DNA of 64,000 nucleotides from Planctomycetota bacterium (GCA_018242585.1 JAFEBQ010000033.1:1-64000), one strand, 5' to 3'; shown: positions 23,857-63,204, numbered from the stretch's first letter. Notes: generated from the sequence alone by a model not told the origin. Numbers and translations are program-made.

Positions 23857-26800
23857 CTACCGCATCGCGCCGACGAAGAAGCTGACGTTCTGGATCATGT
23901 CGCCCTGCATATAGGTGATGGGCGCGGCGAAGTCGACGGCGATTGGCGCCGGACCCATGGCCGGTATCGTCAAGCGAAGGCCCAGACCGGGTGACACGCG
24001 GAAGTCGCTGCGGCGAATCTCGGTCGTCGGTTCGACGGTGCCAAAGTCGCAGAACGCGACGCCGCGGATCATGTCATCGGAGGTGATCGGAAACATGTAT
24101 TCGACGGTGTTCACCCACATGAACTTACCACCGACCTGCACGCCCAAGTCGGTCGGTGACGCGCCGCGAAAGTAGAAGCCGCGCAACGTCTGGTAACCAC
24201 CGGCGAAAAAGTTCTCGTACATCGGTGTGTTGTCGCCGGTGAAGCCCATGTTGGTCATGAACGTCAACGTCTGGCGGCCCGAACGGTCGGCGCGTTGCTT
24301 GAGCAGGAAGTGCTGCCGCGCGTCGATCGTAAACCGCGGATAGACGAACTGGGCAAACGCCTGCTCGTAAGCGAAGTTAATATAGTGCCCCTGGGTCGGC
24401 AGGAACGGACTGTCACGGGTGTCGTGGATCAAGTCCCAACGCAACGTATACAGTTCGCTCGTCCCGAGCACCGCGGCCAACTCGGGTGGCGTCGGCGACG
24501 TCGGGTTGTAAACCGTAATGCTCTCGGCACGCAGCTTCATCTGTCCTTGCAAGTCAGGCGTGAATTGATAGCCCAGGCCCATCGTGCCGCCGCCGCGCTG
24601 TTCCGACCAGTATTGGAAATACCGGTTGAAGAACTGCCCGCTGAGCGAAAAGCTGACCAGCGTGTCGAGAAAGTACGGCTCGCGGAACGTCGCGGTGTAG
24701 TACGACAACTGGGTGCCAGGCATGGCCTGGATGCGCAACTGCTGGCCGGCGCCGCGGAAAGCGGTGCCGCTGCGAATGTCTTCCCAACTGGTTGGAACGC
24801 GGCGGATGTCAAAGTTTTGTTCATCGAGCGTGATCTGGCCGACCAGACCCGAGCTCGAATTGACGCCGGCGCCGACCATCACGCGGCCCGTCTGAGCTTC
24901 GGTCACATCGATAAAGACGGGAACTTCCTGGTCTTGCTCCTGGTACGGGTTCGGCGCAACCGGGCCAAAGATCGGATTCCGCGCGCCATCGGGGTTCAAT
25001 TGTCCTGGCGTGTCATAACCTGGCGGCGGCGCGACCGGAGCCGAGCCAGTGTAAGGCGTGGGGGCCAGGTTCGAGCCCGGTTGCTGATACTGGACTTGTT
25101 GCACGGCCGGGCTGTAGGCGCTCTGCACGGCGGTCGGATCGGTGCGTCCCATCGGAACCTGGCCGGCCGGCGCATAGACCGCGGTTGACGTCGCATTGGT
25201 CGGCGCCGAGCTGCCATAGGGGTTCGCCGGCCCGGCCATGGGAGCCTGGTAAACCGCTTGGGTCGCGGTCGGTGGCTGGTAGGCCGGCAATTGATTCGTC
25301 GGCGGTTGATACGCCGGCGCCGCTGTCGGCGCGGCGGGATAACCTTGCGGAATGTTGGTGCGCTGCGGCGCGGGGGCTTGCGCGTAAGCTGGCGCTGCCT
25401 GGTACGGCTGGTTATAGGCCGCTGGCTGTACCGCGTTGGCGGTCGGTGCGGCCGCCGTGTATGGCGACGAAGGATATCCTTGATTGTTCGTAGCCGGCGC
25501 GGTCGATGCCGCCATCGGACGCCGCGAGAAGTCGTCGAACGCCCCCTGTTGCGGGCTTTGAGCGCGGACAATCACGGGCCCCTTCACCGTTTCTGGCTCG
25601 TCGAACCAGACGCCGTCAACGACCACGTTGATCACCTTGTCAGTGCAACCCGGCTCGGGTCGCCAGACTTCTTCGTCATCGTCCGGGCTTTGTCCACGAT
25701 AGCCGCCGCGGCCGCCGTGCGCGGTGCGACCACCAGGGCCGCCGGTGCCGTTAGGGCCATTGTTCGATGCGCTGCCATCCTGACCGCCGGGGCCGCCACC
25801 GCCCATGTCGTCCATCGGCTTGCCCCAGGTGAGCTTCGGCTCGATCCCTTCGGCCGGCTTGTTCATGAACAAGCCCGAGCCTTTCAGGCGGCGTTCGCTG
25901 TCACGCAGCATGCGGATGTCGGCGATCTGCCCCGGTCGAACCGAGACGCGGTTCATCACGGTATGACGGCGGGTGCGCGGATTGTCGCCGTGGATGCGGA
26001 CCTCGATCCTTCCGATCCGGTAGCGGGCGCCTTCTTCCAAGTGATAGACCAGATCCAACGTGCCTGGTTCTTCCAAGAATCGCAGCTCGGGTTCCACGTC
26101 GGAGTAGATGTAGCCGATGTGGCCGTACTTGTCCTTGACGGCGAAAATGTCGCCGGTCATCGTCCCTTGGTCAAAGTAATTGCCGGCCTTCAGTCGCAGA
26201 TCTTTGTTCAAGTCGTCGAGCGAGAACTTCGTGTTGCCGACCAGCGAAACATTGTTGACCTTGAAGCGCGGGCCTTCGTCGATGACGTAGCGGATCGTGA
26301 CCCAATTGTGCTTGTCGTTGAATTCCAATTCGCGGCCGATGCGGGCCTTGAAGAAACCCAGGCCGCGATAGTAGGTCTTCAGGCGATCAACGTCCTCGTC
26401 GATCTTCTGGCGATCCAGTTCTCCCTTGAAGATCCACAGCAGTGGCTTCTTGGACTTGATTTGGGTTTTCAAGCGGGCGTCGGTGGCGATCTGGTTGCCT
26501 TCGAACTCGACGTCCCAGATGCGCTGCTTTTCGCCTTCGTTAATCAGAAAGATCGCGCCTCGGTCGCCGGCCTTGTCACCTTCGACGATCGTGACGCGCG
26601 CCCGCGTGTACCCCTTGTTATGGTAGTACTCTTCGATTTTCTTACGGGCTTCGGTGACCATGTACGGGTCCAGCGCGTCGCCGGCCGACAGGCCCGATTG
26701 CTTGATCAGGTGCCGTTCCTTGACCTTGTTGCCGACGTAACGGACGTAACGCAGCGTGGGCCGCTCGACCACCTGGTAGATGATGATCAGGCCCCCTTCG

Positions 26801-27354
26801 GGCGTGCGCTGGTACTTGATGTCGACGGTCACGAACGCGCGCGTTTGCAGCAACCGGCGAACGTCGTCGCTGACCTGGTGTGGGTCGTAGGGCCGGCCGG
26901 CGCGTGTCTTGATGTGGGGCGTGATCTTGATGATCGGCACGCCGTGATTGCCGAACACGCGAACGTCGGCCACCGTCTCGTCGCGGCGTGGCACCGCGCT
27001 ATCGGACGTCGGCGGGACGATCGGTCCCACACTGGGGCGGCCGTCATCGGGTGTTTCCGTGGCTTGGGAGCTAGCTGAATTGCCACCCAGCCCTTGCCGA
27101 TCGCGCAGCGACGGCTCGTTCGGGGCGTACGACGTCGGGGGCAAATCACCGACGGCGCTCGCCGGCTGGTTTTGTCCTGGCATACCGTAGCCTGAGCCAC
27201 CGTAGCCCTGTCCCTGCCCGCCATAGCCGGCGGGCGGTTGGAACGGCGTGCCATAGCCACCTTGCGCGCGCACTTCATGCCGGACGGCGAGCAGTAGCCC
27301 GACGCAGACGACACTGCTGGCCATGAAGTTCAGCATTCGAGTGCTGACTGGCAT
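23857..27354 (-). CDS. bamA: Outer membrane protein assembly factor BamA (Omp85) with large disordered insertion
   Basis: 1165 residues, against about 800 for E. coli BamA. Signal peptide, then a Gly/Tyr/Pro/Gln-rich stretch to about 125. Five POTRA domains follow at about 128-507, each with the x-x-G-N motif (VFGNHGVP, YVGNKVKE, FEGNQIAT, LVGNTKFS, IHGDNPRT). About 508-810 is low complexity: Gly/Asp-rich then repetitive Pro/Ala/Gln/Tyr. The beta-barrel is about 811-1165, with the conserved RGF motif in QTLRGFYFRG. It ends FFVGAMR, not in the usual aromatic. ATG 27354 is chosen for the signal peptide; ATG 27375 is possible. It inserts outer-membrane proteins; a diderm envelope is implied. Confidence 0.93.
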   Translation of the reverse strand: MPVSTRMLNFMASSVVCVGLLLAVRHEVRAQGGYGTPFQPPAGYGGQGQGYGGSGYGMPGQNQPASAVGDLPPTSYAPNEPSLRDRQGLGGNSASSQATETPDDGRPSVGPIVPPTSDSAVPRRDETVADVRVFGNHGVPIIKITPHIKTRAGRPYDPHQVSDDVRRLLQTRAFVTVDIKYQRTPEGGLIIIYQVVERPTLRYVRYVGNKVKERHLIKQSGLSAGDALDPYMVTEARKKIEEYYHNKGYTRARVTIVEGDKAGDRGAIFLINEGEKQRIWDVEFEGNQIATDARLKTQIKSKKPLLWIFKGELDRQKIDEDVDRLKTYYRGLGFFKARIGRELEFNDKHNWVTIRYVIDEGPRFKVNNVSLVGNTKFSLDDLNKDLRLKAGNYFDQGTMTGDIFAVKDKYGHIGYIYSDVEPELRFLEEPGTLDLVYHLEEGARYRIGRIEVRIHGDNPRTRRHTVMNRVSVRPGQIADIRMLRDSERRLKGSGLFMNKPAEGIEPKLTWGKPMDDMGGGGPGGQDGSASNNGPNGTGGPGGRTAHGGRGGYRGQSPDDDEEVWRPEPGCTDKVINVVVDGVWFDEPETVKGPVIVRAQSPQQGAFDDFSRRPMAASTAPATNNQGYPSSPYTAAAPTANAVQPAAYNQPYQAAPAYAQAPAPQRTNIPQGYPAAPTAAPAYQPPTNQLPAYQPPTATQAVYQAPMAGPANPYGSSAPTNATSTAVYAPAGQVPMGRTDPTAVQSAYSPAVQQVQYQQPGSNLAPTPYTGSAPVAPPPGYDTPGQLNPDGARNPIFGPVAPNPYQEQDQEVPVFIDVTEAQTGRVMVGAGVNSSSGLVGQITLDEQNFDIRRVPTSWEDIRSGTAFRGAGQQLRIQAMPGTQLSYYTATFREPYFLDTLVSFSLSGQFFNRYFQYWSEQRGGGTMGLGYQFTPDLQGQMKLRAESITVYNPTSPTPPELAAVLGTSELYTLRWDLIHDTRDSPFLPTQGHYINFAYEQAFAQFVYPRFTIDARQHFLLKQRADRSGRQTLTFMTNMGFTGDNTPMYENFFAGGYQTLRGFYFRGASPTDLGVQVGGKFMWVNTVEYMFPITSDDMIRGVAFCDFGTVEPTTEIRRSDFRVSPGLGLRLTIPAMGPAPIAVDFAAPITYMQGDMIQNVSFFVGAMR

Positions 27355-27753
27355 GTAGCGCGTTCCGTGGTGCATTTCGAGAGAGAGAGACAATCGCCAA
27401 TCGAACGCTCAGCCAGGCGGGCCGCCAGGTTCCGTGGAACCCGGCGGAGTGCTGAGGGAGCCCGATCGTTTCAGACAAGTGGAGAAGGGTAACAGGCTTT
27501 CGCGGCCGGCGCTGGCTCGTGGTGAGGAGCGCGACGACCGCCTGCCAGCCGACGGAGCAAGACAAGGGTTGGGCTTCGGCGGCTGGTTCTAGGGTGCGAG
27601 TAATACTGGAACCGACCTACAGCGACAAGGTCGAGTTGCTTTGCCGATCAAGATTTCCGCATCGCACCACCTCTTTGAGGGCAAGGTGTCGCGATCAGCC
27701 GCGGATTACGAGCCCGAAAGCTACTTGCTGGCAAAAAAAGTCGCGGCAGCTTG
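27355..27753. other. Intergenic region upstream of bamA
   Basis: About 400 bases between the bamA start and the ClpP-like gene stop, both leftward. No open frame with support. It should carry the bamA promoter. No terminator-like hairpin is obvious after the ClpP-like gene. Confidence 0.55.
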
Positions 27754-29859: not shown

Positions 29860-30248
29860 GTGATGGTTTTCTCCGTGGCCAGCGCCGCACCGGTTCCGAT
29901 CCACTGAACCGTTGGGGGCGCAAACACCCTGTTGGGGTCTCTATTTGAAGTATAGCTTGCCTGGCAAATCGGAGATACGTGGCAATTTGCGGCGTATCTC
30001 GAAGCCTGGGCGATGGCACATGAGCGTTTCGGACGCTGCGCCGCGTTCCCTGAAGACTGCCAATTGAGGGAAAGGTTCGAGCAATTCACGCTGTCGAAAC
30101 CGTAAACGCTAGCGGCACGGCGATACCGAACCCGCATTTACACACCCCGGCAATCAACTAGAATACCGCCCCGCAATTGCGCCACGGGGGCCGTTAGGAC
30201 ACCGTGGACGAATGGATTTTGCCGCGTCGAAGACCAGGGATGGTGCCG
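29860..30248. other. Divergent intergenic region hflX / sugar cassette
   Basis: About 390 bases with no supported gene. It holds the hflX promoter and the promoter of the rightward glycan cassette. A GTG at 30204 could extend the GT2 gene by 15 codons. Confidence 0.55.
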
Positions 30249-31100
30249 ATGTCTACCGATCGCTCCGCGCAGCCGCAACTTGCTCCGCACGTCGTGCGGC
30301 TGCGCCGGCCCACCGACCATGAGCTGACGTTGATTATCCCCGCCTACAACGAAGAGCAGCGTCTACGCCCGACGCTCGAAACGCTGACCGGGTTCCTCGA
30401 TCGGCAAGGGATCGACTATCGCGTCGTCGTGGTCGACGACGGCAGTTCGGACGGCACGGCTCACGTGTCGGACGATTTCGGCCCACGCTGTTCGACACTA
30501 CGATTGCCCGAGAATCAAGGCAAAGGAGCCGCGGTGCGCCAGGGATTGCTGGCCGCCACCGGGCGGATCGTCGGCTTTACCGACGCCGATTTGCCCTATG
30601 ACTTGAATAACCTGATCACCGCCTATCGCATCCTGGATCGTGAAGAGTGCGAGGTGGTTTTTGGTGCTCGCGACTTGAACGGCGCGGCCCAGTTGGCGCC
30701 ACGCAAGCTGACTCGCCGCATCGCCACGACCGTCTTCAGCAAGATCGTCGCCACGCTGATCTCGCGTGAGGTGACCGACACGCAGTGCGGCTTGAAGCTG
30801 TTCAGCCGGGCCGCGGCCTACGACATTTTCAGCCTGGCGAGCGTGAATGGTTTCGCCTTTGACGTCGAAGTGGTCTTCCTGACGCAACACCTGCGGATTC
30901 CGTTCAAGCGGATTCCGGTCACGCTGGTCAACGAGTATTCTACCACGCTGTCATTGACGCGGCATTCGATTCCCATGCTCCTGGACGCCGTGAAGGTTTG
31001 GGGCCGCCACTTGTGCCGCCCGGCGATTCACCGCCAGAGCACGATCGAAAAGCCCGCGGTTACCGTGCCGGCCGAGACGCGGCAGCGTCGGTCGGCCTAG
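30249..31100 (+). CDS. Glycosyltransferase family 2, dolichyl-phosphate-glucose-synthase-like
   Basis: 283 residues from ATG 30249 (CAGGGATGG upstream); ATG 30240 or GTG 30204 are possible. GT-A fold with LTLIIPAYNEE, VVVDDGSSDGT, NQGKGAAVRQGLLA and the metal-binding DADLPYD. The segment VTDTQCGLKLFSR followed by GFAFDVEV is typical of polyprenyl/dolichyl-phosphate glucosyltransferases. No C-terminal membrane helix. It probably charges a polyprenyl phosphate with a sugar for the GT39 enzyme two genes later. First gene of the cassette, 18 bases before the deacetylase gene. Confidence 0.88.
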   Translation: MSTDRSAQPQLAPHVVRLRRPTDHELTLIIPAYNEEQRLRPTLETLTGFLDRQGIDYRVVVVDDGSSDGTAHVSDDFGPRCSTLRLPENQGKGAAVRQGLLAATGRIVGFTDADLPYDLNNLITAYRILDREECEVVFGARDLNGAAQLAPRKLTRRIATTVFSKIVATLISREVTDTQCGLKLFSRAAAYDIFSLASVNGFAFDVEVVFLTQHLRIPFKRIPVTLVNEYSTTLSLTRHSIPMLLDAVKVWGRHLCRPAIHRQSTIEKPAVTVPAETRQRRSA

Positions 31101-31118
31101 CCCGAGACTCAACGCATC

Positions 31119-32087
31119 ATGAAATCGGCCACCAAGGATGTTCGCGCTCGGCTCGTGTTTCATGCCGACGATTTTGGGCTGAATGGCGCGGTTGACCAGG
31201 GGATTCTCGATTCATTTCGCCACGGCCTGCTGACCAGCGCGTCGATCCTGGCCAACGGCCCGACGGCAGCGCTGAACGTGCCCAAGCTGCGAGCATTGGC
31301 CGACAGCGGCATGCCGAGCGCCGGCGTGGCTGGCGAGATGCGCACCACGCTGAGCGACACTCGCGAACCGTTTGACATCGGCGTTCATTTGAACCTGACC
31401 CAGGGAAAGCCGGTGACCGGGGCCAAGTTTCCGGCCGAGTTGCTCGACGAACAAGGTTGCTTCCCCGGGATTGGCGCGTTGTTCCTGCGGCTGTGGGGGA
31501 CGGGCGACCGGTATCGCCGGCCGATCAGCGCCGAGCTGACCGCGCAAATCGAAACCGTGGTTGGCCTGGGCATTCAGCCCTCGCACGTCAACGGGCATCA
31601 ATACATCGAACTGATTCCGGCCGTGAGTGACGCGCTGCCAGGCGTCCTCGAACGATTTGGAATCTCGATCGTACGTCTGCCACTCGAACGCCGCGCCTTG
31701 GCGGCGATTCTCTGCTCGCGCGGCTTGCCGGCCTGGCTCTTGGCCCAGGTCAAGCGGCACTATGCCCGAGGATTTGCCAAGCGTGTGCGGCGGCAAGGCT
31801 GGCGGCACGCCGACAGCTACTTCGGCACGGCACACGCCGGGCAGATCACGCTGCCAGTGTTGCAGACCTGGCTTGATGAACCGGCGCGCGAACAATTGAT
31901 CGAGATTGGCATTCACCCCGGCGCGGCTGCTTCGTCGGCCGAGCCTGCCGACCATCCCTGGCACGACGCCTTGGCCGACGATCGCCCACGCGAGCAGCAA
32001 CTGCTCTGCTCGGTGAGAGTGGCCGATTACCTGGCGCGCCAGCAACTCGCGCTCGGCCGGCTGCGCTCGTCGGCCAAAGCCGCGTAG
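31119..32087 (+). CDS. ChbG/HpnK (YdjC) family carbohydrate deacetylase
   Basis: 322 residues. The metal site motif LVFHADDFGLNGAVDQGI is at the N-terminus; DIGVHLNLTQGKPV and PSHVNGHQYIELIP supply the conserved histidines. The C-terminus has EIGIHPGAA. The family removes acetyl groups from sugars (chitobiose in ChbG; HpnK is linked to hopanoid glycans). Here, between a lipid-sugar GT2 and a GT39, it most probably deacetylates a lipid-linked amino sugar. It starts 18 bases after the GT2 stop. Confidence 0.9.
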   Translation: MKSATKDVRARLVFHADDFGLNGAVDQGILDSFRHGLLTSASILANGPTAALNVPKLRALADSGMPSAGVAGEMRTTLSDTREPFDIGVHLNLTQGKPVTGAKFPAELLDEQGCFPGIGALFLRLWGTGDRYRRPISAELTAQIETVVGLGIQPSHVNGHQYIELIPAVSDALPGVLERFGISIVRLPLERRALAAILCSRGLPAWLLAQVKRHYARGFAKRVRRQGWRHADSYFGTAHAGQITLPVLQTWLDEPAREQLIEIGIHPGAAASSAEPADHPWHDALADDRPREQQLLCSVRVADYLARQQLALGRLRSSAKAA

Positions 32088-32389
32088 CCGTCATTTCCAG
32101 GTTTGTCGTGCCGTTTCGTGTAGGGTGCACTCCGTGCACCTTATCTTCGCGATGCAAGCATATTCGCTTGGCGCATTGCCAAATGGCCTGCGGCGCACAA
32201 ATAAGGTGCACAGAGTGCACCCTACAGCAGGAATTCGCATTGGCAGCTCGATAGCAGCTAGCATGATTGCCTGGCGGGCGACAGCGAGTCGGCTAGTCTG
32301 GTTTTTTTTCGCGGTGTATAAGACACCCGCTGTGGTATTCCCAGGACGGCGCAGTTCGCGCCGTCGATGCCAAGGATGGCGCGCCGGCG
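32088..32389. other. Intergenic region with 25-bp inverted repeat
   Basis: 302 bases inside the sugar cassette, with no gene. The main content is the palindromic element at 32120-32225. The remainder may contain a second promoter for the GT39 gene. Confidence 0.65.
32120..32225. repeat. Long inverted repeat, GTAGGGTGCAC type
   Basis: Arms 32120-32144 and 32201-32225 are 25 bases each with a single mismatch, separated by 56 bases. Each arm itself contains GTGCAC palindromes. An RNA from here would form a very stable cruciform-like hairpin. The arms look like a mobile intergenic repeat, not a simple terminator (no T-run). Confidence 0.92.
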
Positions 32390-34087
32390 ATGGATCGCAT
32401 TCGTAAGTTTTTCAATCGTGATTCCGAGGCGTGGGGGCCGTTGCTGCTGGTGGCCCTGACGCTGGCGGTTTACGTCTATCGGCTCGACGCGCTAAGCATT
32501 CGCGGCGAGGAGTCGCGCCGCATCACGATCACGCACGAGATGCTCAACAGCGGCAACTGGTTTGAAATCCGCGACGAGGGGCAACTGTTCCTCGAACGCC
32601 CGCCGCTGTGCAACTGGGTCATCGGTTGGGGCATTCTGGCGTTGGGCGACGATCGACAATTCGCCGTTCGACTGCCGTCGGTCTTATCGACGCTGATCAT
32701 GGCCTTGGTGGTCTATGGCTGCGCGCGGACGTGGCAATCGCGACTGGGCGCGCTGACCGCCGGCATGGCCTGGCTCACCATGGGGCAGGTGCTGCAGATT
32801 GGCCGGCTGGCCGAGAATGACTCGCTGATGACGGTCACGCTCGGCTCGGCGATTCTCTGCTGGGAGTGCGGCTACCGCGTCGGTTGGCGACCGAGCGTGA
32901 CGTGGAGCGTCGGCTACGCGCTGACCGGGCTGGCCACCTTGGCCAAGGGGATCCAAGGGCCGGTTTATTTCCTGGCCTGCACTGGTTTCTATCTGCTGTT
33001 CATTCGCCGTGATTGGCGATTCTTCTTCTCGCGGGCGCACGCGATCGGACTGTTGGCGTTCGCCGCCACGCTCAGCGTCTGGCAAGTTCCTTACCTGCTG
33101 ATGCTCGGCTGGGACGTGACGTATCTGACCTGGACGCGCGAAATTCTCAAGAAGACGACGATCACCGAGTGGGGGCCGCTGCTCGGGCATATGACGGCGT
33201 ATCCATTCGAAGTCTTTGGCTCGATGTTGCCCTGGTCGGCGCTGCTGCTGTGGTTTGCCCAGCCGCGATTTCGTCGTGAATTGCCTATCCAGGTGAAACC
33301 TGCGATTCAGTTCTTGGTTTGCTCGTTCTTGATCACATTCCCCAGCGTGTGGCTTGCGCAGGCCGCGCGTCCGCGCTACTTCATGCCGCTAATGCCTTGC
33401 ATGGCGGTGTTGGTGGGACTAGTGGTCGATCAACTATTCGCCCGCGATCAACGGACGGGCGACTTGCGCCCCTGGCGGGTGACGGCACGCACGCTCGGCG
33501 TCACGTCGGCCCTAGTGGGCGTGGTGACCCTCATCGTCTCGTTGTTGCCGATGGATCTCTCGCTGACTACTCCCTGGTATTTCGGCGTGGCCTTCGCGCT
33601 CTTGGCGCTTGGCTGCGGCGCGCTGGTCTGGCAAGCGGGCAACCGCTCGACGATGACGAGCGTCGGCTCGATGGTCGTCGCGGTCGCGCTGTTGTTTGGC
33701 ATGGGCTACAACCTGCTCTTGGTGAATTTCTACCGCTCGGTGACCAACGACGCCGAGGCATCGATCGTCGAGTTCCGCGACCATTTGCCGCCGAATACCC
33801 GGCTGGTGAGTATTGGCGGCGTGCATCACTTGTTCCGCTACCATTTGCGTCGGCCGGTCGAGCGCGTGGAAATCACTGACGCGGCCCGCGAGAGGTTTGA
33901 ATACTTCTGCTTCGATCGGCCGGAGCTTGCGGTCAAGCTGGATTTTGGTTTCGCCTGGGAGCCGGTCTGCGAAATAAACTGCGATCGGCACCTTGCGAAG
34001 CAACCGAAGGACGTGGTGATCATCGGCCGACGGCTGCCCGACGCGCGAACCGCCAGCGCCGCAACCGAAGCAACTGTGCCGAAATAG
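32390..34087 (+). CDS. GT39/ArnT-like polyprenyl-phosphate-sugar transferase (membrane)
   Basis: 565 residues, integral GT-C membrane protein with about ten to twelve hydrophobic segments (LLLVALTLAVYVYRL, IMALVVYGCA and others). The first periplasmic loop has the acidic IRGEESRRITITHEML and NWFEIRDEGQLFLERPPL, the pattern of PMT/ArnT-family enzymes. A soluble C-terminal domain begins near residue 455. Such enzymes transfer sugar from a polyprenyl phosphate to lipid A, protein or glycan outside the inner membrane. It is 51 bases upstream of the second GT2 gene. Confidence 0.88.
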   Translation: MDRIRKFFNRDSEAWGPLLLVALTLAVYVYRLDALSIRGEESRRITITHEMLNSGNWFEIRDEGQLFLERPPLCNWVIGWGILALGDDRQFAVRLPSVLSTLIMALVVYGCARTWQSRLGALTAGMAWLTMGQVLQIGRLAENDSLMTVTLGSAILCWECGYRVGWRPSVTWSVGYALTGLATLAKGIQGPVYFLACTGFYLLFIRRDWRFFFSRAHAIGLLAFAATLSVWQVPYLLMLGWDVTYLTWTREILKKTTITEWGPLLGHMTAYPFEVFGSMLPWSALLLWFAQPRFRRELPIQVKPAIQFLVCSFLITFPSVWLAQAARPRYFMPLMPCMAVLVGLVVDQLFARDQRTGDLRPWRVTARTLGVTSALVGVVTLIVSLLPMDLSLTTPWYFGVAFALLALGCGALVWQAGNRSTMTSVGSMVVAVALLFGMGYNLLLVNFYRSVTNDAEASIVEFRDHLPPNTRLVSIGGVHHLFRYHLRRPVERVEITDAARERFEYFCFDRPELAVKLDFGFAWEPVCEINCDRHLAKQPKDVVIIGRRLPDARTASAATEATVPK

Positions 34088-34138
34088 TTCAGTCGAGCAT
34101 TGTCCTAGCGATTAGACAAAAATCACAGTTAGCCAGCC

Positions 34139-35149
34139 ATGACGGCCACGACCTTTACCACGGTGCCTGACGACGCGACCACCGCTCGCGCGCCGAACGC
34201 CAGCCCGTCGCGATTGTCAATCGTGATTCCGGTCTATCGTGGTGCGCTGACCGTTGAACCGTTGGTTCACAAGCTGATCGAGCATTTGGACCAGGCGTAT
34301 CAACTGGAAATCGTGCTGGTCAACGACGCCAGCCCCGATCAATCGGCCGACGTCTGCCGGCGACTGTCGATGACCTTGCCGCAAGTTAAGTTCGTCAACC
34401 TGTCGCGCAATTTCAGCGAACACAACGCCGTGATGGCGGGCCTGAATCACTGCTGGGGCGACTACGCCGTGATCATGGACGACGATTTTCAGAATCCGCC
34501 CAGCGAAGTCATTAAGCTGGTCGATGAGATTCGCCGCGGCTACGACGTCGTCTTCGCACAATATGAAAGCAAGCGACATCACCCGTTGCGCAATTTGGGA
34601 AGCTGGTTCAACAATCAAGTGGCCAGCATCTTGCTGCGCAAGCCCAAGGATCTGTACCTCTCGTCGTTCAAGGCGGTGAATCGCTTCCTGATCGACGAGA
34701 TCATCAAGTACCAGGGGCCCTATCCGTACGTCGACGGTTTGATTCTGCGCTGCACCAACAGTTGGTCGCGCGTGACGGTCGAGCACGATTCGCGGCAAGT
34801 CGGCAAGAGTGGCTACACGATGACCAAGCTGGTCAGTCTGTGGCTGAATATGTTCACCAACTTTTCGATCCTGCCGCTGCGTTTGGCGTCATGCTTGGGC
34901 TTCTTGTTTGCAATCATTGGTTTACTGATTGCGATCTACGCGGTCATTGATCGCTTTATCGACCCTCAAATGCCCTCGGGCTGGGCGTCGTTGATGGTCT
35001 CGATTCTGATCACCAGCGGCGTACAATTATTCGCGCTGGGGACGATTGGCGAATACCTGGGGCGACTCTTCCTCAAGGACAATGGCCAGCCCCAGTTTGT
35101 CGTCCGTGAACGTGTGAACTGCGAACTCAAACCGCGAGCGCGAACGTGA
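34139..35149 (+). CDS. Glycosyltransferase family 2 with two C-terminal membrane helices (ArnC/GtrB/DPM1-like)
   Basis: 336 residues. GT-A motifs LSIVIPVYRGALTVEPL, LVNDASPDQS, LSRNFSEHNAVMAG and the metal site MDDDFQNPP. Two C-terminal transmembrane helices (LGFLFAIIGLLIAIYAVI and SLMVSILITSGVQLFALG) and the GTIGEYLGRLF end are standard for ArnC/GtrB enzymes, which load sugars on undecaprenyl phosphate. Its last four bases overlap the start of the epimerase gene, so the two are translationally coupled. Confidence 0.92.
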   Translation: MTATTFTTVPDDATTARAPNASPSRLSIVIPVYRGALTVEPLVHKLIEHLDQAYQLEIVLVNDASPDQSADVCRRLSMTLPQVKFVNLSRNFSEHNAVMAGLNHCWGDYAVIMDDDFQNPPSEVIKLVDEIRRGYDVVFAQYESKRHHPLRNLGSWFNNQVASILLRKPKDLYLSSFKAVNRFLIDEIIKYQGPYPYVDGLILRCTNSWSRVTVEHDSRQVGKSGYTMTKLVSLWLNMFTNFSILPLRLASCLGFLFAIIGLLIAIYAVIDRFIDPQMPSGWASLMVSILITSGVQLFALGTIGEYLGRLFLKDNGQPQFVVRERVNCELKPRART

Positions 35150-36138
35150 ACTCGGCCAGCCGCTATGCCGACCGCCAGGTGCTCGTGACCGGCGGCCTGG
35201 GCTTCATTGGCAGCAACCTGGCGATTCGCCTGGTCGAAGCCGGCGCACAGGTGACGCTGCTCGATTCGCTGATTCCACAATTTGGCGGCTCGTGGGCCAA
35301 CATCGAGCCCGTCCGCGATCGCGTGGCCGTCAACATCTCGGATATGCGCGACACCCACTCGCTCGACGTGTTGGTGGCCGGCAAGGACGACATCTTTCAT
35401 TTGGCCGGCCAGGTGAGCCACGGCGACAGCATGCGCGATCCGCAGCTCGATCTCGAGGTGAATTGCGTCTCGACGATGAACCTGGTCGAGTCGTGTCGCA
35501 AGCACAATCCCAGCGCGCGGCTGCTGTATACTTCGACGCGGCAGGTCTATGGCCGGCCGCAGTGCCTGCCCGTCAACGAAGATCACCCCACGGTGCCGCT
35601 GGACGTTAACGGCATCAACAAGCTGGCCGCCGAGTATTACCACCTATTGTATCATGTCACCTACGGCGTGCGGTCGGTGGTGCTGCGATTGACCAACACC
35701 TATGGGCCGCGCCAGCAGATTCGCAGCAATCGCCAGGGGTTTTGCGGTATTTTCATTCGCCAGGCCCTGCGCGGCGAGGCGATTCAGTTGTTTGGCGGCG
35801 GGCAGCAGGTGCGCGACTTTAACTACGTCGACGACGTAATCGACGCCATGTTGCTGGGGCTCGACACCGAAGCCTGCCTGGGACGTGTTTTCAATCTGGG
35901 AGCGCCGCGGCATTACTCGCTGGTCGACTTTGTGAACATTTTGCAGCGGCACTGCCAGTTCCCGGTCACCTCGGTGCCGTTCCCCGACGACAAGAAGATC
36001 ATCGACATCGGTGACTACTACGGCGATTACTCGCGTTTTGCGGCGGCGACCGGATGGCAGCCGCGCGTTGATCTCGAAGCGGGCATCGAGCGTTCGCTCG
36101 ACTTCTATCGCCAGCACAAGGAAGAATACTGGCTATGA
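35146..36138 (+). CDS. NAD-dependent epimerase/dehydratase (extended SDR)
   Basis: 330 residues from GTG 35146, overlapping the upstream gene by four bases. NAD-binding TGGLGFIGSNLAIRL at 15-29, LTNTYGPRQ and RDFNYVDDVIDAM are typical of nucleotide-sugar epimerases and dehydratases. The catalytic YxxxK motif is altered: Asn155 stands where Tyr is expected, four residues before Lys159 (DVNGINKLAAE). STRQVYG keeps the Ser/Thr region. Likely acts on a nucleotide sugar consumed by the aminotransferase that follows; actual reaction (epimerase, dehydratase or decarboxylase) cannot be settled. Confidence 0.88.
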   Translation: MNSASRYADRQVLVTGGLGFIGSNLAIRLVEAGAQVTLLDSLIPQFGGSWANIEPVRDRVAVNISDMRDTHSLDVLVAGKDDIFHLAGQVSHGDSMRDPQLDLEVNCVSTMNLVESCRKHNPSARLLYTSTRQVYGRPQCLPVNEDHPTVPLDVNGINKLAAEYYHLLYHVTYGVRSVVLRLTNTYGPRQQIRSNRQGFCGIFIRQALRGEAIQLFGGGQQVRDFNYVDDVIDAMLLGLDTEACLGRVFNLGAPRHYSLVDFVNILQRHCQFPVTSVPFPDDKKIIDIGDYYGDYSRFAAATGWQPRVDLEAGIERSLDFYRQHKEEYWL

Positions 36139-37265
36139 GCACTCCGTCGAGCGCCATTCGTATGTTCGATTACCGCGAGCAGTTGGCGGGCATGCGCGAG
36201 GAGATTCTCGCGGCCATGACCGCGGTGCTCGACTCGGGCAGCCTGATCCTTGGCCCGCGCGTGAAGCAGTTTGAAAAGAACTTCGCCGCGTACCTGGGCG
36301 CGCCGGGCGAAGCGGTCGGCGTGGCCAACGGCACCGACGCCATCGCCATTGCCCTGCGGACGTTGGACATCGGCTCAGGGGATGAGGTTCTGACCGTCTC
36401 GAACACGGCCATCCCGACGGTCAGCGCTATTCGCATGGCGGGTGCCACGCCCGTGTTCTGTGACGTTGATCCGCAGACGCTGCTGATCGATCTGCACGAT
36501 GCCGCCAGCCGGATCACCGCGCACACCCGGGCGATCGTGCCAGTGCATTTGTTCGGCAACGCCGTCGACATGCGGGCCGTGCTGCATTTTGCCCGGCAGC
36601 ATCGGCTGCGCGTGGTGGAAGATTGCGCTCAAGCGACGGGTACGACCCTCGATGGCCAGCACACGGGCACGTTTGGCGACGTCGGCTGCTTTTCGTTCTA
36701 TCCGACCAAGAATCTTGGCGCTTATGGCGACGGTGGCCTGTGCTTCACGCGCGACGCCAAGTTGGCCGAGCAGATGCGGCGCATTCGCATGTATGGCTGC
36801 GCGGCGACCTATTACAGCGAGCGCGAAGGGGTCAACAGCCGACTCGACGAACTGCAGGCGGCGGTGCTCGACGTCAAGCTGCGCCACCTGGACGATCACT
36901 TGCTGCTGCGTCGTTCGATCGCGGCCCAGTACGAAGTCGAGTTCGCCGGCCAGATCGACCGCCCGCGCACGACCCGCGGGGCCAGCCACAGCTACCACCT
37001 ATATGTCATCAACTCGCCGCGGCGCTCGGCATTGATTGCACAACTCGACGCCCAGCAGATTGGCCATGGCATTCACTATCCCACGCCCATTCACCTGATG
37101 CGGGGTTATCAGTTCCTGAGCTATGGGCCAGGTTCGCTGCCGGTGACTGAGCAAGCGGCGGGGCGGATTCTTTCGCTGCCGTGCTATCCGGAATTGCCGC
37201 TCCTGTCGGCGGCGCGCGTGGCCGCCGCTGTCGTCGGCCCGGCCGTGTCACGTCTCGCGGCATAA
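36135..37265 (+). CDS. DegT/DnrJ/EryC1/StrS-family sugar aminotransferase
   Basis: 376 residues, PLP-dependent transaminase acting on nucleotide keto-sugars. VANGTDAIAIALR (PLP phosphate site), VVEDCAQATGT with the pyridine-N-binding Asp163, and GCFSFYPTKNLGAYGDGG with the PLP Lys192. The start overlaps the epimerase stop by four bases (ATGA type). It is the last gene of the cassette, ending at a strong hairpin (37273-37315). It should install an amino group on the sugar made by the preceding SDR. Confidence 0.95.
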   Translation: MSTPSSAIRMFDYREQLAGMREEILAAMTAVLDSGSLILGPRVKQFEKNFAAYLGAPGEAVGVANGTDAIAIALRTLDIGSGDEVLTVSNTAIPTVSAIRMAGATPVFCDVDPQTLLIDLHDAASRITAHTRAIVPVHLFGNAVDMRAVLHFARQHRLRVVEDCAQATGTTLDGQHTGTFGDVGCFSFYPTKNLGAYGDGGLCFTRDAKLAEQMRRIRMYGCAATYYSEREGVNSRLDELQAAVLDVKLRHLDDHLLLRRSIAAQYEVEFAGQIDRPRTTRGASHSYHLYVINSPRRSALIAQLDAQQIGHGIHYPTPIHLMRGYQFLSYGPGSLPVTEQAAGRILSLPCYPELPLLSAARVAAAVVGPAVSRLAA

Positions 37266-38797: not shown

Positions 38798-39229
38798 TGG
38801 AAACCTCAATTCTGGAGATCAGGTTGTTGCCCGAGCTGCCGGGCAGCGTCCACCAACGGCGTGACGACTGCTTTGCCATAGGGCAGCTTTTGATTGGTTC
38901 CTATCTTGCCATAGACAGCAAGCCAGCAACAGGGGCGGGGGCGAGGAGGGGCTAGGGACTAGGGGCGAGAGGCTAGGGCTTGATGCATCGCGGAATCTAT
39001 GGTGCAGACATAAGTTACATCAAACCTTCAAGCAGATACTGAGGAGATTTGAGGGCACTCGTAAAGACGAAAAATCACGAACCACATGAAACTCTGACAA
39101 ATCATCACAAGTATTCCCTAGCCCCTAGCCCCTAGCCCCTAGCCCCTAGCCCCTCCCAATCTCCCTTGGGCGTTTTTCGCTCGTCGGACTATGATAGCCG
39201 GCCCATTCACCGAACTTTGGCGGTTCCGC
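38798..39229. other. Divergent intergenic region with CTAGCCC repeats
   Basis: About 430 bases between divergent genes, no gene seen. Both ends carry CTAGCCC/GGGCTAG-type repeats (38941-38978 and 39116-39157); the middle (38980-39115) is AT-richer and probably holds promoters. Confidence 0.65.
38941..39157. repeat. Heptanucleotide CTAGCCC array with inverted partner
   Basis: 39116-39157 holds about five perfect tandem copies of the 7-mer CTAGCCC. About 140 bases to the left, 38941-38978 holds the complementary words GGGCTAGGG, ACTAGGGGC and GGCTAGGG, so the two ends can pair. Same layout (arms plus AT-rich centre) as other intergenic palindromes in this window. Confidence 0.85.
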
Positions 39230-39670
39230 ATGCCTGTCACTGTCTTTACCAACGGCTGTTTCGATTTGCTCCATCCGGGCCACGTCGACTTGTTGGATCG
39301 CTGTCGGGCGCTCGGAGATCGCCTGATTGTCGGAATCAACAGCGACGCCTCGGTGCAGCGGCTCAAAGGCCCGCACAAGCCGTTCATTTGTGAAGATGAC
39401 CGCCGGTGGATGCTGCTGGCCCTGAAATCGGTGGACGAGGTGTTGGTGTTCGACGCGCCGACCCCGCTCGAATTGATCGAGCAAGTTCGTCCTGACGTGT
39501 TGGTCAAGGGAGGCGATTGGTCGGTCGATCGGATCGTTGGGGCCGAGTTCGTGCAATCGTACGGTGGCCGCGTGCTGTCTCTCGATTTGCTGCCCGGCCA
39601 TTCGTCGAGCACGCTGGCGATCGAAATCGCGCGCAAGGTGCAACAGTCGCAATGCCCGACCGGATCCTGA
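39230..39670 (+). CDS. D-glycero-beta-D-manno-heptose 1-phosphate adenylyltransferase-like (RfaE2/HldE C-domain)
   Basis: 146 residues, a stand-alone nucleotidyltransferase. The cytidylyltransferase motif [17 protein letters not shown] (HxGH at 15-18) sits at the start; [14 protein letters not shown] and LVKGGDW are typical of RfaE2. ATG 39230 is preferred; ATG 39191 would add 13 residues. It makes ADP-heptose or a similar NDP-sugar for the downstream GT9 enzyme, whose start overlaps it by 19 bases. The kinase half of HldE is not here. Confidence 0.9.
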
Positions 39671-40839
39671 TCGTCAAACTCAGCTCGCTCGGCGACGTGC
39701 TTCACGCGCTGCCGGCCGGCCAGGCGCTGCGCCAGCGCTTTCCCCACGCGCATATTGGTTGGGCGGTCGAACGGTCGCATGCCGGCTTGCTGCGCGGCCA
39801 GAGCTGGCTCGACGAAACAATCGTCTGGGATCGCGGCCAGCGTGGCGGCCTGCTCGACTTTGTCCGCCGCCTGCGCTGTGGAAGTTGGGATCTTGCCATC
39901 GATTTGCAAGGCTTGTTCCGCAGCGGACTGATCACCTGGCTCAGCGGCGCTCCACGGCGGCTGGGCGCCGCCCAGGCGCGTGAAGGCGCTCCTTGGTTCT
40001 ACACCGAGACGGTTTCCCATCGCACGCTCGATTGTCACGCTGTCGAGCGTGCGCTTGAGCTGATCGCACCACTTGGCGCGACGTGCGAACTGGCGCCACT
40101 GGTACGCCCGTATCTCGACTTCGCTCAGCCCACGTTGCATACTCCTGGGCCGCGCTTGTTTCCGCTTTGGCCGGCGGCTGAAGATGTAGTGGCTGTCGAG
40201 CGTTGGCTGGCCGCCTCCGGTGTTGACTTGGCGCGCGAGCAACTGGTGGCGATCAATCCCCATTGCCGGCGTGCCGCGAATCTTTGGCCGGCGGCGAAGT
40301 TCGTAGCGCTGGTCCAACAACTGGCAAAACTGCCGAATGTTCGCGTGGCGTTGGTCGGCGGTGCGCCATCCCGAGCGCTTTGCGATCAGATCGAGCGCGA
40401 TGCCAGCGTGCCCGTCCTGCGGGCCGACGGCCAGTTCAGTCTGTTGGGCTCGGCCGAGCTTTTCGCCCGGGCCAGCGTCGTCGTCACCGGCGACACCGGA
40501 CCGATGCACATCGCCGCGGCGGTCGGCGTGCCGATTGTCGCCTTGCTGGGCGCGACCGCGCCGGCGCGAACCGGTCCCTATGCCTCGAACGCCACGGTGA
40601 TTCGCAAGCGGCTGGACTGTGCGCCGTGTCTGGCCAAGCAATGCCGACTGGGCCAAAATCCGCCGCCGTGCATGGACTTGATCGAAGTCCGCGAGGTGGT
40701 CGATGCGGTGGTTGAGCGAATGCAGGCCGCGCCAGTTGCCGATGAAGTATCGCAGGCTGATGACTTGCCCGCCGGCGTCGCGTGTTGGCGCGGTGCGAGC
40801 GCTCTCAATGCCCGAACGCCATTCAGGAAGTCGGCATGA
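39652..40839 (+). CDS. Glycosyltransferase family 9 (heptosyltransferase-like)
   Basis: 395 residues from ATG 39652; the frame is open further upstream, within the adenylyltransferase gene, but the family N-terminus is [23 protein letters not shown] fold with [31 protein letters not shown] and the donor-binding [20 protein letters not shown]. The Cys-rich end ([18 protein letters not shown]) matches the family C-terminal KCPYDIAC-like motif. It adds heptose to LPS inner core in Proteobacteria. Coupled to the gene before (19-base overlap) and after (ATGA overlap). Confidence 0.92.
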
Positions 40840-62690: not shown

Positions 62691-63204
62691 AGAGTCGGAG
62701 TGGGCTGGGCGATCGCTGGCTCGGTTGGCAACAGCCGAGCGGGAGGAAAGTCCGGGCTCCCCAGGGCACTGTGGTGGATAACGTCCACCGGTCGCGAGAC
62801 CCGGGAAAGTGCAACAGAAAGCAAACCGCCTCGACCGGCGACTCGCCAGAGTTGTCGGCCCGAGGTAAGGGTGAAACGGTGAGGTAAGAGCTCACCAGCA
62901 GGTTGGGTGACCAGCTTGGCTAGGTAAACCCCACAGGGAGCAAAGCCAAACAGAAGGGAAGCCGCTGGGAAACCGCGCGGCGCCGATCGGCCCGATCGGT
63001 CACCACCTTCGGGTAGGCTGCTAAAGAAGCCGAGCAATCGGCTTCGTAGAGAAATGATCGTCGCCGCGGCCGATTGGTCTGCGCGGCAACGAAGGCCCAG
63101 GGTTCAGCGCCGTGGCAACATGCTAGCGGAGCAAGCCCCAGCTTTCAGCGCGCAAGCCAATCGGTCGCGGAACAGAACCCGGCTTACAGGCCCGCTCCGA
63201 CTCT
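62691..63204 (+). ncRNA. rnpB: RNase P RNA (class A) with a large peripheral insertion
   Basis: Catalytic RNA of tRNA 5' maturation. The conserved core is unmistakable: AGGAAAGTCCGGGCTCC (62744-62760), GTGCAACAGAAAGCAAACCG, GTAAGGGTGAAACGGTG (62864-62880), GGTAAACCCCAC and CAGAACCCGGCTTAC near the 3' end (63172-63187). P1 is a perfect 10-bp helix, AGAGTCGGAG (62691-62700) with CTCCGACTCT (63195-63204), followed by six T at 63206-63211 which likely end transcription. Length is about 514 nt, against about 377 in E. coli: an extra arm of about 107 nt at 63064-63170 has a 14-bp closing helix. Confidence 0.96.
63064..63170 (+). other. Extra helical arm inside RNase P RNA
   Basis: CCGCGGCCGATTGG (63064-63077) pairs with CCAATCGGTCGCGG (63157-63170), 14 bp with one G-U. 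GCGCG (63081-63085) and CGCGC (63149-63153) continue the helix. The tip of about 60 nt has further short pairs. It replaces the short 3' hairpin seen at the same place in E. coli. Confidence 0.85.

Follow-up and report, generated by a model that had tools for sequence, protein, structure and literature searches.

Polyprenyl-phosphate amino sugars set bacterial surface charge and, in some pathogens, polymyxin resistance, and the surface glycans of planctomycetes have been little studied. The Arn pathway (ArnA–F and ArnT) uses an SDR, a DegT aminotransferase (ArnB), a GT2 with two C-terminal helices (ArnC) and a GT-C transferase (ArnT), in addition to a formyltransferase and the deformylase ArnD. 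In the Francisella FlmF2–NaxD–FlmK system of lipid A galactosamine, FlmF2 is a polyprenyl-phosphate GT2 and FlmK is an ArnT-like transferase. The WbpB–WbpE, FdtA–FdtB and QdtA–QdtB pathways include a sugar N-acyltransferase, and their DegT enzymes are partnered by a Gfo/Idh/MocA dehydrogenase or a cupin isomerase. NaxD belongs to the YdjC superfamily and deacetylates Und-P-GalNAc (PMC11279074). In the galactosamine decoration of mycobacterial arabinogalactan, the GT2 PpgS feeds a GT-C transferase via a polyprenyl-phosphate amino sugar (PMC9671496). The dehydratases WbpM and PglF are active even though Met replaces the Tyr of the YxxxK motif (PMC8987622), and the same replacement gives the MxxxK motif of CapE (PMC3699295). 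A search of the literature for an ArnT-type system in planctomycetes retrieved no work on these bacteria.

The locus described here lies in a 64,000-nt stretch of DNA (the window) from the 5.57-Mb genome of a Planctomycetota bacterium (56 contigs, 99.9% complete). ORF calling identified six genes on the plus strand within 30249–37265, and the encoded proteins all exceed their Pfam cut-offs (in order, Glycos_transf_2, YdjC, PMT_2, Glycos_transf_2, Epimerase and DegT), in agreement with the positions and families given by the initial annotation of this DNA. Genes 1 and 2 are separated by 18 bp, genes 2 and 3 by 302 bp and genes 3 and 4 by 51 bp; the last three genes overlap at GTGA (35146–35149) and ATGA (36135–36138), as had also been noted. 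The 302-bp gap divides the six genes two plus four and carries a palindromic repeat. Promoter and terminator scans gave results at chance level.

The initial annotation had interpreted the six genes as a single Arn-like cassette, an interpretation it considered dependent on conservation of the gene order in relatives. Separate searches with the YdjC, SDR and GT39 proteins did not recover the six-gene order outside the genome of the window. Across 397 genomes from the class, 25 carry the YdjC gene and 29 a related SDR (E < 1e-80), and only five genomes (G000, G069, G231, G384 and G389) hold both; the two are linked only in the window, and in the other four co-holders they reside on different contigs. 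A single conserved six-gene operon is thus ruled out. The six genes are most likely two modules, each widespread by itself, brought together locally around a glycosyltransferase of the ArnT fold, and we consider it rather probable that these are two independent polyprenyl-phosphate amino-sugar modules (30249–32087 and 34139–37265). The broader claims of the initial annotation fared better: the folds, families and module content support a lipid-linked amino-sugar logic, and the proposal that two distinct GT2 enzymes signify two lipid-linked donors is likewise supported.

The first module comprises a GT2 of the polyprenyl/dolichyl-phosphate sugar synthase type (GT2a; 30249–31100, plus strand; PF00535, 8e-28), with an in-frame GTG at 30204 upstream of its start, and a YdjC-family carbohydrate deacetylase (31119–32087, plus strand; PF04794, 3.6e-47). 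In all 23 loci examined that have the YdjC gene, GT2a adjoins it on the same strand, and in several loci a GT-C membrane transferase of family GT87 adjoins or neighbors the pair. GT2a is without a C-terminal membrane helix pair, and its NCBIfam matches include PpgS and PgfS, both below cut-off. The YdjC active-site motifs (HADDFG, HLN, NGHQ and HPG) are intact and invariant among homologs. GT2a would transfer an N-acetylhexosamine to polyprenyl phosphate, and the YdjC protein would strip the acetyl group to leave a cationic lipid-linked hexosamine, a role like that of NaxD. As judged from family and role descriptions of NaxD (PMC11279074), FlmF2 and FlmK, the resemblance to the Francisella system would extend to a putative polyprenyl-phosphate GT2, to a deacetylase of the YdjC superfamily that would act on a lipid-linked HexNAc and to an ArnT-like transferase; the arrangements differ in that here the GT39 gene adjoins the second module, and in relatives a GT87 enzyme sometimes takes the place of the transferase. 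The initial annotation had presented a YdjC-fold enzyme in place of ArnD as a departure from the Arn pathway. The family assignment holds, but as a novelty the replacement is ruled out by the precedent of NaxD, which already acts in this way (PMC11279074). The mycobacterial PpgS system shares the principle of a GT2 that feeds a GT-C enzyme; it has a different acceptor, and GT2a scores 55 bits against the PpgS model, far under its cut-off of 370 bits.

The gap between genes 2 and 3 contains a dispersed inverted-repeat element of 108 bp (32119–32226, no strand assigned), with 26-nt arms bearing one mismatch (two arms found vs. 0 expected) and a fold z-score of −6.3. A genome-wide search with the arm pattern gave 29 half-sites, whereas a reversed-pattern control gave 0. 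The element resembles a small dispersed repeat, and it may fit a junction between two units or may be a passenger.

The third gene encodes a polytopic GT-C glycosyltransferase of family GT39 (32390–34087, plus strand; PMT_2, 9.6e-15). The best solved match to its structural model (pLDDT 82.7) is ArnT (5f15; Z 35.6, rmsd 4.2, 497 residues aligned, including the C-terminal periplasmic domain); protein O-mannosyltransferases come next, with 345 residues aligned at a Z of about 26. In a profile search, ArnT is the only glycosyltransferase of known structure that is matched (5.9e-22). The functional residues of ArnT are Tyr43 (in RYA) and Lys69 (in YFEKP) (PMC5377068). In the GT39 family alignment the Tyr is replaced by Arg or Trp (or lies in a Pro-Arg context) and the Lys by Arg, and the Asp-Glu pair of the first periplasmic loop of ArnT is Glu-Glu. 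The ArnT likeness proposed by the initial annotation therefore applies to the fold and not to the two essential residues; GT39 is an ArnT-fold enzyme and not an ArnT ortholog. Its best relatives (36–41% identical) are spread across numerous genera of the order, often near other GT2 genes or a flippase-like protein, and only one examined locus (G034) has a GT39 relative beside the genes of the second module, in divergent orientation. Because these relatives usually lie elsewhere, often beside unrelated GT2 genes, the donor for GT39 need not come from either module.

The second module comprises an ArnC/GtrB-like polyprenyl-phosphate glycosyltransferase (GT2b; 34139–35149, plus strand; Glycos_transf_2), an extended NAD-dependent SDR (35146–36138, plus strand; Epimerase, 3.5e-46) and a DegT/DnrJ/EryC1/StrS PLP aminotransferase (36135–37265, plus strand; PF01041, 1.8e-106). 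The two C-terminal helices of GT2b noted previously correspond to hydrophobic residues 249–267 and 285–303. Among solved structures it scores highest against ArnC chains (224 bits), followed by GtrB sll0501 (190 bits), which supports the designation ArnC-like; its NCBIfam ArnC score (150 vs. a cut-off of 529) does not reach the equivalog level. The SDR is predicted to oxidize an NDP-sugar to a keto-sugar, which the DegT enzyme would aminate, with GT2b then transferring the amino sugar to polyprenyl phosphate.

An alignment scan of genome contigs for the SDR yielded 282 relatives, the best 80 of which were used for neighborhood counts. According to their record titles, these 80 derive from Planctomycetota, Pseudomonadota, Myxococcota, Krumholzibacteriota, Verrucomicrobiota, Lentisphaerota, Chloroflexota, Actinomycetota, Nitrospirota, Fibrobacterota, Acidobacteriota and Ignavibacteria; the closest named relatives of the SDR of the window are planctomycete MAGs. 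A DegT gene neighbors the SDR in 66 of the 80 loci (downstream in 64, counted on the same strand and within 600 bp; upstream in two), compared to one of 22 loci for a comparison set of generic SDRs. The full GT2b–SDR–DegT order, with GT2b upstream of the SDR, is present in 17 of the 80. Twenty-five of the 80 loci have, within 6 kb, a class I methyltransferase that belongs to a single family; some of these loci also have a PMT_2-type membrane protein, and several loci with the full triad have both. In Chloroflexi loci (e.g., L060) a GT2, SDR and DegT are accompanied by a large membrane protein, by a pair of small proteins of the EamA type that resemble ArnE/ArnF, and by a PMT_2 protein. To our knowledge, Chloroflexi are generally held to lack LPS, and lipid A would therefore not be the general acceptor for the second module. 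Homologs on plasmids and phages have only generic annotations; one SDR, 38% identical to that of the window, is encoded in a 735-kb uncultured phage record (LR756501.1, 316655–317608).

The aminotransferase retains its PLP-binding Lys192 in an intact active-site motif (SFYPTKN). The initial annotation had likened it to ArnB, which was not borne out: DesV, QdtB, FdtB-like and WbpE chains score 317–478 bits in the PDB profile search vs. 235–258 for ArnB chains, and the NCBIfam ArnB score is 202 bits vs. a cut-off of 631. Going by the DesV, QdtB, FdtB and WbpE enzymes, this likeness hints that amination may occur at C3; by contrast, WecD/VioB-like acyltransferases, the type seen in the sister loci described next, act on 4-amino sugars. 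In a sister group of SDR loci (L038 and L040–L042) a sugar N-acyltransferase (NeuD/VioB or WecD type, as classified in L042 and L038) comes after the SDR–DegT pair, as does a GT2 in most of them, which supports an amino-sugar product. The locus thus shares with the WbpB–WbpE, FdtA–FdtB and QdtA–QdtB pathways a DegT enzyme closest, among characterized solved structures, to DesV, QdtB and WbpE and, in the sister loci, the N-acyltransferase. It differs in the oxidation partner, which here is an SDR without the catalytic Tyr, and in the probable handover of the product to a polyprenyl-phosphate GT2.

The most unusual part of the locus is this SDR family, tied as it is to a sugar aminotransferase across many phyla. 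The model (pLDDT 92.5) has an extended SDR fold, with the glycine motif TGGLGFIG and Z scores of 37–43 to many NS-SDRs; it is nearest to NDP-sugar epimerases and dehydratases, matches that are too general to indicate a reaction. Loss of the catalytic Tyr, reported by the initial annotation for the window, is family-wide: Asn155 sits where the Tyr of YxxxK is expected, and all 81 family members share Thr131, Arg132, Gln133, Asp153, Asn155 and Gly156, with Lys159 present in 78. The NAD-binding glycines and the polar residues His92, Ser95, Thr131, Arg132, Gln133, Asp153 and Asn155 are invariant across phyla. The closest solved structures, among the matches listed, have the Tyr of YxxxK at the position of Asn155, and no solved structure with an NxxxK motif was recognized among them. 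The SDR, to which the initial annotation gave an ArnA-like position, is not closest to ArnA. WbpM, PglF and CapE also lack the Tyr; the signature of WbpM and PglF (TDK + MxxxK) is absent from the SDR family, which has TRQ + NxxxK and other invariant residues. The TRQ...NxxxK class does not appear in the dehydratase Table 1 of PMC8987622, which rules out a dehydratase of a motif class known there, and we found no description of it. In the sister group (L038–L042) the Tyr is kept and the catalytic Lys is replaced by Asn (YEITN/YEVSN); both halves of the YxxxK dyad are thus altered, in different SDR branches.

With the active site so altered, NDP-sugar oxidation by the SDR is assumed from its DegT partner and its fold. 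The SDR could alternatively be a pseudoenzyme that merely supports the DegT enzyme, as the replacement of the Tyr base in every family member, the loss of the Lys as well in three of 81, and the altered Lys of the sister group would allow. We consider this very unlikely, because the glycines that bind NAD, together with a novel group of polar residues, are held invariant across phyla, WbpM and PglF function without the Tyr (PMC8987622), and without SDR catalysis the DegT enzyme would have no keto substrate made by a neighbor. A more ambitious proposal, which we advance only tentatively, is that the TRQ...NxxxK SDRs found near DegT genes in about a dozen phyla oxidize an NDP-sugar by a mechanism undescribed among SDRs, perhaps at C3 instead of C4, and thereby open a widespread, uncharacterized polyprenyl-phosphate amino-sugar route to cell surfaces.

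The six genes are co-directional within about 7 kb, genes 3–6 are tightly spaced with overlaps, and an ArnT fold and an ArnC-like GT2b are both present; all of this would also suit a single dedicated system parallel to Arn, in which the SDR, DegT, GT2, YdjC and GT39 proteins act sequentially on one sugar and the second GT2 serves the acceptor side. Such a system is nevertheless unlikely given that no linkage between the YdjC and SDR genes is seen in the other genomes holding both, that GT2a–YdjC forms a unit of its own, that the gap with its dispersed repeat parts genes 2 and 3, and that none of the six genes encodes a formyltransferase whose step a deacylase could follow. Inspection of Pfam domains in these six proteins revealed neither an ArnA-type formyltransferase domain nor an ArnD-type (NodB-fold) deformylase, and with the DegT and SDR proteins not closest to ArnB and ArnA, the initial claim that the set of activities equals that of Arn is not sustained. 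By the tests made this is not an Arn system; its GT2b, GT39, DegT and SDR proteins recall Arn components, and the locus appears part FlmF2–NaxD-like and part Arn-like in its working. A further alternative, that GT39 is a PMT-like protein O-glycosyltransferase and that the modules serve protein glycosylation and not lipid A, draws on the Pfam domain name PMT_2, the rank of PMT structures immediately after ArnT, the replaced ArnT residues and the similar gene set in Chloroflexi. We regard it as doubtful: ArnT stands above the PMTs in structural comparison and is the only glycosyltransferase match in the profile search, and lipid A genes are present in the genome.

Under the two-module reading, GT39 would work on the periplasmic side, transferring a sugar from a lipid-linked donor to an envelope glycan; next to the six genes there is no evident flippase gene. 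Genes for LpxK and the Kdo transferase WaaA are present in the genome, which makes lipid A synthesis likely and lipid A/LPS a plausible acceptor. Downstream of the locus, an HldE C-terminal-like nucleotidyltransferase gene followed by an overlapping gene of the GT9 heptosyltransferase family (39191–40839) suggests an LPS-core-like heptose, and in one genome (G007) a DegT–SDR–GT2 set adjoins HldE and a heptosyltransferase. A perfect tandem repeat of CCCTAGC (5.6 copies, 39116–39154) lies just 5' of the HldE-like gene. Elsewhere in the window, a BamA/Omp85-like protein with POTRA repeats (23857–27393, minus strand) has its POTRA and barrel regions separated by a long segment rich in proline and glutamine, and a Class A RNase P RNA (62697–63202, plus strand) spans 506 nt compared to a 367-position model, indicating large insertions.

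As the window shows, amino-sugar modules combine freely in planctomycetes. The lasting interest of the locus lies in its sharply defined family of Tyr-less SDRs, whose members pair with a sugar aminotransferase across many phyla.
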